Below, piece by piece: positions 59,741 to 64,000 of a DNA stretch of 64,000 bases; within the stretch, counting starts at the first letter, position 1, and the number at the start of each line of letters is the position of its first letter. The DNA is from Hyphomicrobiales bacterium (GTDB taxonomy: Bacteria > Pseudomonadota > Alphaproteobacteria > Rhizobiales > Xanthobacteraceae), in NCBI GenBank assembly GCA_003135415.1, contig PLBP01000005.1, positions 29,313 through 93,312 on the forward strand, given 5' to 3'. A program made the translations under genes and the position numbers. The notes under the pieces are model-generated. The model saw only the letters and a list, made by a program, of their open reading frames with translations. It was not told the DNA's origin and did no database searches.

Positions 59741-60406
59741 ATGAAACGCGCATTTCAATCGATGGCGGCCATCGTCGTATTCGCCGCCGCCGCACAGACA
59801 GCGTTCGCAGCCGATCTGCCGCGTCGTCCGCCGCCCGATTATCCCACCAAGGCACCCCCGCTACGCGCCTTTGACTGGAGCGGGTTTTATGTCGGCGTTA
59901 ATGGCGGTTATGGCTGGGGCACGTCGCGCTACGATTTCGGCGCCGCCGGAATCAACCGCTTCAACGTGAACGGCGGCCTCGTTGGCGGCACCATCGGCTA
60001 CAACTACCAATTCGGCCAGACGGTGCTCGGCATCGAGGGCGACATCGATTGGGCCGATATCAACGGCAGCGCGGCATGCGTCGCGGGTCTGTGCCAAACG
60101 AAGGTCGATTGGCTCAGCACCGTGCGCGGGCGCCTCGGCTATGCGATCGACCGCTTCATGCCGTTCGTGACGGCCGGCGCCGCCTTTGGCGACGTGAAGG
60201 CGAACATCCCGGGCCTCGGCTCGCAGAGCAATACGCAGGCGGGCTGGACGGTTGGCGGTGGCGCGGAATACGCCTTCGCGCCGAACTGGACGATCAAGGC
60301 CGAGTATCTCTACGTCGATCTCGGCAAGTTCAACTGCAACACTTGCGGTGCGAACGTGAAGTTCAACGAAAATATCGTACGCGCGGGCTTAAACTACAAG
60401 TTCTGA
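59741..60406 (+). CDS. outer membrane beta-barrel protein (Omp25/31-like porin family)
   Basis: ADLPRRPPPDYPTKAPPLRAFDWSGFYVGVNGGYGWG...VRAGLNYKF. Confidence 0.92.
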   Translation: MKRAFQSMAAIVVFAAAAQTAFAADLPRRPPPDYPTKAPPLRAFDWSGFYVGVNGGYGWGTSRYDFGAAGINRFNVNGGLVGGTIGYNYQFGQTVLGIEGDIDWADINGSAACVAGLCQTKVDWLSTVRGRLGYAIDRFMPFVTAGAAFGDVKANIPGLGSQSNTQAGWTVGGGAEYAFAPNWTIKAEYLYVDLGKFNCNTCGANVKFNENIVRAGLNYKF

Positions 60407-60582: not shown

Positions 60583-60624
60583 TGGGGGATCGTCCAACGG
60601 TAGGACATCGGACTCTGACACCGC
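60583..60624 (+). pseudogene. 5'-half fragment of tRNA-Gln(CUG)
   Basis: tgggggatcgtccaacggtaggacatcggactctgacaccg: acceptor 5' strand, D-arm and anticodon loop with CTG; no adjacent canonical T-arm or acceptor 3' strand. Confidence 0.65.
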
Positions 60625-60730
60625 CTCTTAACGAGGCTACCCCCTCCCTCCAAAGGAAGGGGTACTTATTTGAATCTCCTATTTTCACCTGCGTACGTAC
60701 CTCGGTTGGCACATTCCTGGGATGGATGAC

Positions 60731-60848
60731 GGTCGCTATCGGAGGCATAGCGGACATTGTTCGGCACTCGCGCTGAATGTATCGGTAGCGAATGACCCAA
60801 AGCGGACATTGGTCGCGCGCCCGGAATGCGTCTGTAGCGAATGACCCA
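60731..60848. repeat. left copies of an intergenic repeat (one full ~68 bp, one partial)
   Basis: ggtcgctatcggaggcatagcggacattgttcggcac...gtagcgaatgaccca then agcggacatt...ggaatgcgtctgtagcgaatgaccca. Confidence 0.85.
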
Positions 60849-61013
60849 ACTGCGACATCGGGGGCCGTAGTTTATTGCGGTGCACTCCAGTCGTTACCAC
60901 GCGGCCTTGTCAATCTCGACCGGACCGCGTCTCTACAGAACTACTGGGTATGTTGAACAGATCTTTTCAATGCATAATGTGCCTGAACGGATATTAATTG
61001 CGGGGGTTAGGGT

Positions 61014-62306
61014 TTGAACGGCAGCATCCGCGGTTCCGCGGCCAATCGCCCCATCTCGTTCGCACTTATTGGTGCTGGGTCAGCAGGCGCGGGCGTGTTC
61101 CATCAGTCTCTACTTACCGAGAATGTTCGTTGTGACGTTGTTTGTGATTCCAATATCGAACGCGCGCTTGCATGCAACGATTCTACTCGTGCTGCTAAAC
61201 TGGTGACGTCTGTAGGAGAGCTTGCAGATGTTGTGCGCACAGGACGGTTAGCCATATGCGAAGACGCCACTCTGGCAGCCGCAGCTCCGAGTATTGATGT
61301 TCTCTTTGACGCATCAACCGCAATCGATGCCGCACCACAATTCATAACGATGGCAATGGCAACCGGCAAACATGTCGTCTTGATGAATGCAGAGGCGGAT
61401 ACGCTTTTCGGTCCTTTTTTCTGGAGGGAAGCGCAACGCTACGAAGTAGGGTACACAAGCGCTGACGGGGATCAGCCTGTCGTATTGGCGCGCTTGGTCG
61501 AGGAGTTACGCTTCTACGGTCTGACTTTTGTCATGGCTGGAAACATTAAGGGGTTCCTTGATCGCTATACAGATCCCATCAAGATTCAACCCGAAGCGGC
61601 AAAAAGGTATCTCGATCCGCAACAGTGCGCGTCTTACACAGATGGTACGAAACTCGCGGTGGAAATGTCTATTGTGGCCAATGGCCTGGGCTGCAACCTT
61701 TTGCGAAAAGGAATGATCGGCCCACGCGTGGCCGAAATCGATCTTCTTGCGGCGTTTGATTTGGCTGGTCGATGGGGGCCGGGGAAGCCGCCGGTAGTGG
61801 ATTATATACTGGGTGCGAAGCCGAAAGGCGGGATATTTGTAGTTGGCTACACGGATGATGCTTACCAACGTCGCATGCTCAATTGGTTTCCGTCTGATTT
61901 GGGGCAGCCTGGACCATTTTATTTTTTGACAAGGCCTTATCATCTTGTCCACATGGAAACTATGCGGACTGTGATCGAAGTGGGGCGAACGGGACGTTCT
62001 ATACTTGCGCCGCGATATGGGATGCGAACTGAGGTCATCTGCTACGCAAAGCAGGAGTTGCGGGCGGCCACAATACTGACCGGCCCCGGCGGTTTTGAGT
62101 GTTATGGATTGATTGAAGAACGTGATCGAAGCACCCCAGGCCTACCGATCTGTCTCTCGTCCGGTGCAAAACTGAATAGGGCCATTCAAAAAGACAGCCG
62201 GATTGAATTCCGTGACGTTGACGAAGGCTTGCTTCCGCGGCAAGCGTTGAAGGCCTATCGAGAGGCGCTTGCGGTGACGTCGAGTACTGGTTTTCTCGCT
62301 GAGTGA
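61014..62306 (+). CDS. NAD(P)-dependent oxidoreductase, homoserine-dehydrogenase-like with SAF-like C-terminus
   Basis: ISFALIGAGSAGAGVFHQSLL Rossmann motif; VLFDASTAIDAAPQFITMAMATGKHVVLMNAEADTLFGP. Confidence 0.75.
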   Translation: MNGSIRGSAANRPISFALIGAGSAGAGVFHQSLLTENVRCDVVCDSNIERALACNDSTRAAKLVTSVGELADVVRTGRLAICEDATLAAAAPSIDVLFDASTAIDAAPQFITMAMATGKHVVLMNAEADTLFGPFFWREAQRYEVGYTSADGDQPVVLARLVEELRFYGLTFVMAGNIKGFLDRYTDPIKIQPEAAKRYLDPQQCASYTDGTKLAVEMSIVANGLGCNLLRKGMIGPRVAEIDLLAAFDLAGRWGPGKPPVVDYILGAKPKGGIFVVGYTDDAYQRRMLNWFPSDLGQPGPFYFLTRPYHLVHMETMRTVIEVGRTGRSILAPRYGMRTEVICYAKQELRAATILTGPGGFECYGLIEERDRSTPGLPICLSSGAKLNRAIQKDSRIEFRDVDEGLLPRQALKAYREALAVTSSTGFLAE

Positions 62307-62324
62307 ATGGTCGGAGCTCCCTAA

Positions 62325-63263
62325 ATGGTTGCGGCCACAGTCTTGATTCCAACCCATAACCATCCGCAAGCCTTGGCCCACGCCGTTGCGGGTGTTCAGA
62401 CACAGACGCTGCAAGATTTTGAACTCTTCATAGTTGGCGACGGGGTAACTGACGAGACGCGTGACTGCATCGCCGAGCTGGCGAAAGATGAACCTCGTAT
62501 TCGCTTCTTTGATTTTCCTAAGGGTCCGCGGAAGGGCGAGATCCATCGCCATCAGGCCTTGCAGCACGCGCAAGGCCGTTTCGCTGCATATCTTGGCGAC
62601 GACGATTGCTGGATGCCTAACCACCTGGAAGTGCTTGACGAGCTTTTAACCGACGTGGACTTCGGCCACACGTTGCAAGTGGGCATAGACGCCAAACGGC
62701 AGATCGTTGTCATGCCCGCTGACCTGCAAAATTCTGCGTTTAGGAATCGAATGCTGACCGAATTGTTTAATCGCTTTGATTTTACTTTTGCGGGTCACAC
62801 GATGGCTGCCTATCATCGGCTGCCCCATGGCTGGCGCACGACGCCGACTAAGTTTCCCTGGACCGATTTATTTATGTGGCGTCAGTTCCTTGCAGAACCG
62901 TGGTGCCGTGCACGATCCGCAATGGTTCCGACGGGGATCAATACCTGGACCCACCAACGTCCCCATCTTAGCGACCGGGAGCGCGCCGATGATTTGGCCT
63001 ATTGGTGCGCGCAAGCCGCCACGCCGGCCTTTCGCGAAAACCTCTGGCGTCTCACGGCGCAACGCTTCGCCAGTGAATCTGTTGCCTTCGAGCTCGAACG
63101 CTTCGAGCTGGCAAATTCGCTAGAAGCGATGAGGAATTCGACCGAGCTCGAGCGCTTCGAGCTGGCGAATTCGCTAGAAGCGATGAGGAATTCGACCTCT
63201 TGGCGGGTGACACGACCGCTGCGCGAACTCGGGCGCATGGCGGCGAGATTTAATGGTCGATGA
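62325..63263 (+). CDS. family 2 glycosyltransferase with C-terminal tandem repeat
   Basis: ATVLIPTHNHPQALAHAVAGVQTQTLQDFELFIVGDGVTDETRD...YLGDDDCWMPNHLEVL. Confidence 0.9.
   Translation: MVAATVLIPTHNHPQALAHAVAGVQTQTLQDFELFIVGDGVTDETRDCIAELAKDEPRIRFFDFPKGPRKGEIHRHQALQHAQGRFAAYLGDDDCWMPNHLEVLDELLTDVDFGHTLQVGIDAKRQIVVMPADLQNSAFRNRMLTELFNRFDFTFAGHTMAAYHRLPHGWRTTPTKFPWTDLFMWRQFLAEPWCRARSAMVPTGINTWTHQRPHLSDRERADDLAYWCAQAATPAFRENLWRLTAQRFASESVAFELERFELANSLEAMRNSTELERFELANSLEAMRNSTSWRVTRPLRELGRMAARFNGR
63090..63197 (+). repeat. two tandem 54-bp repeats inside the GT2 gene
   Basis: gagctcga(a/g)cgcttcgagctggc(a/g)aattcgctagaagcgatgaggaattcgacc x2; encodes ELERFELANSLEAMRNST x2. Confidence 0.95.
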
Positions 63264-63413
63264 ATCGCTGCTCGCGATTCTCAGTGGACACTCGATTTAC
63301 CGCTCGGTGATGCTTACCGGATGGAATATCTTGCTTAAGATCTGTGGCAGGGAACATCCAAGTCGAAAGTCCGCTGTTGGCACTTCGCGTCATTCGCTGC
63401 ATCGCAGCGCTTT

Positions 63414-63482
63414 GGTCGCTATCGGAGACATAGCGGACATTGATCGGCACTGGCGCGGAATGCGTCTGTAGCGAATGACCCT
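63414..63482. repeat. right copy of the ~68-bp intergenic repeat
   Basis: ggtcgctatcggagacatagcggacattgatcggcactggcgcggaatgcgtctgtagcgaatgaccct; direct orientation relative to 60731. Confidence 0.85.
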
Positions 63483-63519
63483 GAGCGACCATGCGGACTA
63501 CGCGCGGCGTACCCGCGTC

Positions 63520-64000
63520 TTACCACCAGCCCTGTCGCGCCCGAGGATAGTACTGGCCGCCGCCCCGACGCGTATTGCCGTCCCAATTGCGGCGGAAAAA
63601 GGAGCCGAAGCCGAAGTCGCCCCAGCCGTTGTCGCCCGCAACGCGGTCGTCGGTCGTAGGCTTGCGCGTTATAAAGCCGCCTTGGGGCTGATTGCTCAGC
63701 ACCGCGACAAACTCGGTGCGGTAGTTGGTCTCGCGGCTCAGCGGCTCGTCCGAGACGATGATCGAGGATCGCGGCAATGCAGTCGGCGCGATGCGATCGA
63801 GCAAATCCTGCGGGATGGTGATGCGGTCGAGCGCGTCCTTGGCGTCGTCCGCCTCGTCGATCGTGACCGCGGTCCAGCGAAGGCCGGCCTCGTTGCGCGC
63901 CATCGCCGTGAACACATGCGTGCCGATCGGCTTGTCGGGATTGCGGATCGTGACGGGGACCTCAATGGTCGCATCGAACACCTCGCCCCCGTCCGGCCAC
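63520..64000 (-). CDS. C-terminal part of a secreted protein running off the window (possibly L,D-transpeptidase-like)
   Basis: Reading frame open through the window edge (...WPDGGEVFDATIEVPVTIRNPDKPIGTHVFTAMARNEAG...NQPQGGFITRKPT). Family recognition tentative. Confidence 0.4.
   Translation of the reverse strand, partial: WPDGGEVFDATIEVPVTIRNPDKPIGTHVFTAMARNEAGLRWTAVTIDEADDAKDALDRITIPQDLLDRIAPTALPRSSIIVSDEPLSRETNYRTEFVAVLSNQPQGGFITRKPTTDDRVAGDNGWGDFGFGSFFRRNWDGNTRRGGGQYYPRARQGWW

Follow-up and report, generated by a model that had tools for sequence, protein, structure and literature searches.

The RIME repeats of rhizobia are short intergenic palindromes of Hyphomicrobiales that occur in mosaic groups. 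The REP/BIME and TIR families of Bradyrhizobia are likewise short intergenic palindromes grouped in mosaics (PMC3733652). In Acinetobacter, the dif/pdif (Xer) modules carry 28-bp sites in which two inverted 11-bp arms surround a 6-bp centre, and Xer module islands consist of rows of accessory genes between such sites, whose orientation alternates between C/D and D/C (PMC12907356). Here we describe a gene pair from a Hyphomicrobiales bacterium that is bracketed by direct repeats, which belong to a family of three-palindrome elements, each about 120 bp long, that punctuate head-to-tail rows of accessory genes in this genome and in relatives. The DNA analysed, here called the window, is a stretch of 64,000 nucleotides (G000:C25:29313-93312) from a 3.0-Mb draft genome in 41 contigs (G000, the own genome). 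Positions below are those of the window unless a contig or locus is named.

A gene pair bracketed by direct repeats

A sequence-only reading of the window had claimed direct repeats of ~68 bp in one orientation around an oxidoreductase and a family 2 glycosyltransferase (GT2), with a partial copy after the left repeat. The repeats are indeed there, at 60731-60809 and 63414-63492 with 86% identity over 79 bp, and the partial copy follows in tandem at 73% identity; the actual length of the repeat, however, is about 115-125 bp. The features of the locus are as follows, with element borders set by a model built from 22 genome copies and with G001 denoting a genome of the same genus.

59741-60406, + strand: left flank, outer-membrane beta-barrel protein (OMP; PF13505), in synteny with upstream genes in G001 (L106)
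60583-60623, + strand: truncated 5' half of tRNA-Gln(CTG), 88% identical to the intact tRNA-Gln of G001
60697-60811, + strand: left element copy, model match 87.2 bits
about 60696-60723: unit A of the left copy, degenerate, spacer TGGCAC at 60707-60712
60729-60757: unit B of the left copy
60782-60809: unit C of the left copy, spacer TGACCC at 60793-60798
60816-60858, + strand: tandem partial copy, the 3' end of an element, 23.7 bits; unit C at about 60831-60858
61014-62306, + strand: cargo gene 1, DRL-family oxidoreductase, 430 aa (PF21135, E=1.5e-32)
62325-63263, + strand: cargo gene 2, family 2 glycosyltransferase, 312 aa (PF00535, E=1.1e-19)
63369-63493, + strand: right element copy, model match 102.1 bits
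63367-63394: unit A of the right copy
63412-63440: unit B of the right copy
63476-63481: spacer TGACCC of unit C of the right copy
63520-63999, - strand: right flank, an L,D-transpeptidase-type gene of about 494 aa that runs past the window, which holds its 3' part

Both gene assignments follow from these family matches, the PF21135 DRL catalytic domain of cargo gene 1 scoring 113.3 bits against a curated cut-off of 27. This protein is related to the Brucella DRL structures PDB 3UPL and 3UPY (3upy_A, E=9e-37), with which it shares a protein family over residues 10-381, although as a distant paralog; a second DRL in the own genome, on C33, is 30% identical to it. Among 60 related genomes, relatives of the DRL gene are at most 35% identical, and the GT2 is nearly absent, with one distant match at 26%. 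The looser codon usage previously remarked on for the pair was confirmed when composition was checked over 61014-63263, which is anomalous: GC is 0.533 in the DRL gene and 0.566 in the GT2 gene against a reference mean of 0.632 (sd 0.040), GC3 is 0.52 and 0.62 against 0.74 (sd 0.10), and the DRL gene has a codon-bias distance of 0.53, the mean being 0.31. Taken together, these data support the view that the two genes are accessory and of foreign composition, and that the direct repeats around them come from a recombining family. The suggestion that it is surface-glycan modification cargo fits a GT2 ending in STSWRVTRPLREL beside a DRL-type oxidoreductase, a match by resemblance only; judging from family membership, the pair probably serves to make or modify a surface-glycan sugar. 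The GT2 gene also contains an in-frame 54-bp tandem duplication (96%) at 63089-63196, near its 3' end, after which comes the C-terminal stretch STSWRVTRPLREL.

The flanks of the segment

The genes on the left (rrmJ, ppx, 2OG, SDR, OMP and others) keep their synteny in G001, where they lie together on contig C59 and where a BA14K-like gene and a histidine kinase (names given by eye from sequence) come after the OMP gene. The right-hand gene encodes a YkuD-type L,D-transpeptidase, according to its sequence and family matches, and aligns with homologues in relatives up to its last residue; its G001 counterpart is on another contig, C132, adjoining a tRNA-Arg. Since the OMP and transpeptidase genes are on different contigs in G001, the junction between them is rearranged. 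We found no empty site joining 60730 to 63483; none of the relatives examined has these two flanking core genes side by side, so such a site cannot be read. The tRNA-Gln fragment at 60583-60623, at which ARAGORN called no tRNA, is the sole match of its kind in the own assembly, the G001 copy being intact; it possibly marks the rearranged junction to the left of the array segment, as an old integration or rearrangement point. Just past the window end (C25 about 93313), near the contig end, a run of N breaks the transpeptidase gene.

It had also been proposed that similarity beyond both repeats reflects a duplication of the right-hand gene end when the module arrived. A 35-base local match is present, but it is weak, being equalled in 2 of 500 shuffles. 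Several other element copies carry a related ACCACGCGGCC tail, so the similarity need not represent a duplicated gene end, and the proposed duplication is not needed.

A repeat family in Hyphomicrobiales

A genome-wide count with BLAST gave 26 clear copies of the repeat in the own genome, and the model gave 52 matches (E<=0.01). The earlier idea of a single insertion with a private repeat is not supported; the repeat belongs to a genome-wide family arranged in head-to-tail rows. Model searches found 93 matches in G276 and 72 in G302, both from another genus of the same family, and none in the same-genus G001; 24 of 300 sampled family genomes match the element consensus at E<=1e-4. A 22-bp element pattern hit nine loci, in records from Xanthobacteraceae, Bradyrhizobium and others that are mostly alphaproteobacterial, while a degenerate 29-bp pattern had no match in the genome contig database. 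The element hits no Rfam family at gathering score, its arm sequence is not found in the main text of PMC3733652, and searching the literature for the repeat's sequence and for arrays of this kind returned nothing relevant, no paper among those searched giving the sequence in a bacterial context. To judge by these searches, the repeat family is undescribed. In the own genome 19 of the 26 copies lie within 5 kb of a contig end, against 14% expected, and from this enrichment it follows that element sites break assemblies; the array-rich genomes are all drafts, whose contigs often end inside arrays.

The architecture of the element was read in G276, which has the best-preserved copies. A clean element comprises three palindromes of 28-29 bp in a rigid arrangement, 45-46 bp apart, each with TGTCCGCT/AGCGGACA arms and an asymmetric spacer that differs between units (TGGCAC in A, CGGGGGT in B and TGACCC in C). 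The G276 arrays hold 83 palindromic units in 57.7 kb, against none in shuffles, with unit A followed by B 12 times and B by C 9 times at 45-46 bp start to start, alongside about ten irregular adjacencies. Copies in the own genome have a clean unit B, a partly degenerate A and a C that is largely degenerate on its left arm. Units A and C, with a 10-nt loop between 9-nt arms, correspond to an 11-6-11 arrangement and unit B to 11-7-11; the 11-6-11 geometry and asymmetric spacer suggest a putative tyrosine-recombinase core site. The element ends are inverted (ATGTCCGCT / AGCGGACAT), and no duplicated flank of the MITE type was recognised by eye. The REP tag GTAG/CGTC does not mark the ends either: GTAG lies inside some own-genome copies, is missing from others and is never an end tag. 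A conserved folded structure found no support: the consensus folds at -4.75 kcal/mol and 1 of 13 pairs changes on both sides.

Neighbouring elements mostly share one orientation and separate low-GC accessory segments

In the array-rich genomes, neighbouring copies 0.3-6 kb apart are co-oriented in 51 of 54 cases among the matches listed (binomial p 1.5e-12), a count that uses the best copies of the search, so that weak copies are under-represented, and in which pairs within one array are not fully independent. Among the listed matches, 28 contigs with at least two copies have uniform orientation and 5 are mixed. Pairs more than 6 kb apart are only a handful, mixed in orientation and too few to test replication polarity. 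Relative to the element, upstream genes are co-oriented or opposed in 23 and 20 cases and downstream genes in 18 and 29 (genes here being simple long ORFs, some possibly spurious), so gene orientation does not explain the co-orientation of the elements.

The elements separate segments of 0.3-5 kb made up of low-GC accessory genes. For 21 inter-element segments of the own genome, mean GC is 0.536 against 0.630 for the window, and the module has 0.543; the oxidoreductase-GT2 module is a typical array segment. Array regions encode an autotransporter, an L,D-transpeptidase, an FKBP isomerase, a cupin, a methyltransferase, a kumamolisin-like protease and a TPR protein, and of seven segment genes tested one, a YcbB-type transpeptidase, has a match in G001, at 43%. 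Two recurrent genes were seen: a PilZ-like family (83-90% DNA identity) in four own-genome array regions (L028:8645-8947, L029:6189-6442, L030:5125-5383 and L031:1615-1917), and a VKOR/DsbB-type-looking gene (400 bp, 83.5%) that adjoins the element in two genomes (L109, L130) with differing neighbours.

Crossovers within the element

In several pairs of copies, crossovers lie within the element: the first palindrome stays with the left flank, and the other two stay with the right flank. The copy on contig C37 has a left flank and unit A about 99% identical to those of copy B on C27, while its units B-C and right flank resemble copy A on C27. The copies L027_16403 and L035_6751 are 94% identical over 209 bp of left flank, and their right sides then diverge; two G302 copies have the right flank in common and not the left; and, across genera, a G000 copy and a G276 copy share the left flank and the start of unit A. 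Over 22 copies, positions in the A part are linked among themselves (r=0.52) and show no linkage to the remainder of the element (r=-0.05). Linkage falls away at the A/B border, although this drop is only supportive because the right part carries little internal phylogenetic signal (r=0.07).

Candidate recombinases

Tyrosine-recombinase matches lie in or near arrays in 5 of 11 cases (C27, C33, C35, C38 and C15) and belong to differing subfamilies. Against the integron-integrase profile TIGR02249, the best of three array-linked recombinases scanned scored 19.6 bits, with a cut-off of 265. A 211-aa solitary tyrosine recombinase adjoins the element in both G000 and G302, the two proteins being 90% identical; the element end and the gene are common to the two genera at 88% DNA identity over 770 bp, a homology that stops exactly at the stop codon (L031:3703-4472, L132:3834-4466). 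This recombinase family is widespread, and those of its other members that we inspected show no link to the element. Its plasmid and viral relatives have no DNA match upstream of the gene, and as the enzyme of the system the protein was kept as a lead only. Separately, at the start of the C38 array an integrase gene lies beside a tRNA 3'-half-like sequence (L027:3021-4806); a 65-bp piece recurs at L032:4721-4784.

Discussion

On balance, we lean towards reading the module as a single segment in a cassette-like array that recombination at the element has assembled. The near-uniform orientation of the copies suggests that genes were inserted or exchanged at the repeat. Segments would be gained, lost or exchanged when an incoming copy and a resident one undergo a single crossover, with the incoming, element-bearing DNA perhaps passing through a circular intermediate; a single crossover at the element always leaves direct repeats in one orientation. 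The crossover might be made by a site-specific enzyme, itself putative, or by homologous recombination, and segments may still be mobile today. Set against this reading, neither an excised circle nor an empty site was seen, and genes lie on both strands between the elements, which is not the case for integron cassettes. Its more ambitious extension, an undescribed site-specific gene-cassette system of Hyphomicrobiales in which triplet sites gather accessory genes in head-to-tail order through the action of a recombinase for which the 211-aa protein is one candidate, we regard as speculative and, as matters stand, unlikely. Plain RecA recombination between dispersed 120-bp repeats, with no special recombinase, could give the same outcome as a sub-question of the best explanation, and single-crossover integration by homology also yields direct repeats, with crossovers falling inside the repeat as seen here; we give it, too, a real but minority place; against it, copies mostly 77-94% identical over 70-80 bp are poor substrates and several joints lie near the A/B border.

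A different account would make the element an intergenic mosaic repeat, akin to REP/BIME/RIME or MITE families, that spreads by itself and accumulates in poorly constrained islands with foreign genes; the module would then have come by other means, the bracket would be a by-product, and the shared orientation would reflect strand polarity or tandem spread. In agreement with it, the units are palindromic, copies are dispersed and mostly have unlinked flanks, some copies are partial or in tandem, and the islands also carry integrase genes and tRNA fragments. Independent insertion, however, predicts random orientation rather than the 51 of 54 seen, conserved asymmetric spacers in a fixed A-B-C order are not REP-like, and a common flank plus half an element in different contexts requires recombination, so that we give this account a real but minority place. 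That two copies bracket an ordinary, horizontally acquired pair of genes by chance, which the sequence-only reading had named as the outcome if the repeat were very abundant, gains something from the abundance of the repeat in islands, but clustering and orientation far from random, and the same low GC across 21 segments, make it improbable. Least credible of all is that the segment is an integron gene cassette with attC sites as repeats: in size, in direct orientation and in a spacing of one to two genes it looks like a cassette array, yet the consensus ends in ATGTCCGCT and AGCGGACAT without the RYYYAAC/GTTRRRY core ends, has no supported conserved hairpin (1 of 13 pairs changed on both sides) and is accompanied by genes in both orientations, and the best of the three array-linked recombinases scanned reaches 19.6 bits against the cut-off of 265 for an integron integrase.

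If the element is a recombination site, soil-type Alphaproteobacteria would gain a gene-capture route beside integrons and Xer modules, and the envelope, secreted and glycan genes carried in the arrays could be catalogued straight from sequence. Even as no more than a mosaic repeat, the element flags hypervariable islands, disrupts assemblies and presents a clear orientation puzzle.

Comparison with known systems

Like integron arrays, or attC clusters without an integrase, the rows described here have head-to-tail repeats of about 120 bp, 0.3-5 kb apart, that separate unrelated accessory genes; they differ in the lack of attC cores and of a conserved single-strand fold, in having genes on both strands, and in that no integron integrase was recognised among the three array-linked recombinases scanned. 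With dif/pdif modules they share the rows of accessory genes, and units A and C match the 11-6-11, 28-bp geometry. The arms, however, are ATGTCCGCTTT, unrelated to the Xer TTATGTTAAAT type (table in PMC12907356), the sites are rigid triplets of about 118 bp, and the copies are nearly all co-oriented (51 of 54 neighbours) instead of alternating. The element is, like the REP/BIME, TIR and RIME families, composed of short intergenic palindromes in Hyphomicrobiales; in contrast to them, it conserves both arms and asymmetric spacers, keeps a fixed A-B-C order and spacing, has an array-wide orientation, and is linked to accessory genes.
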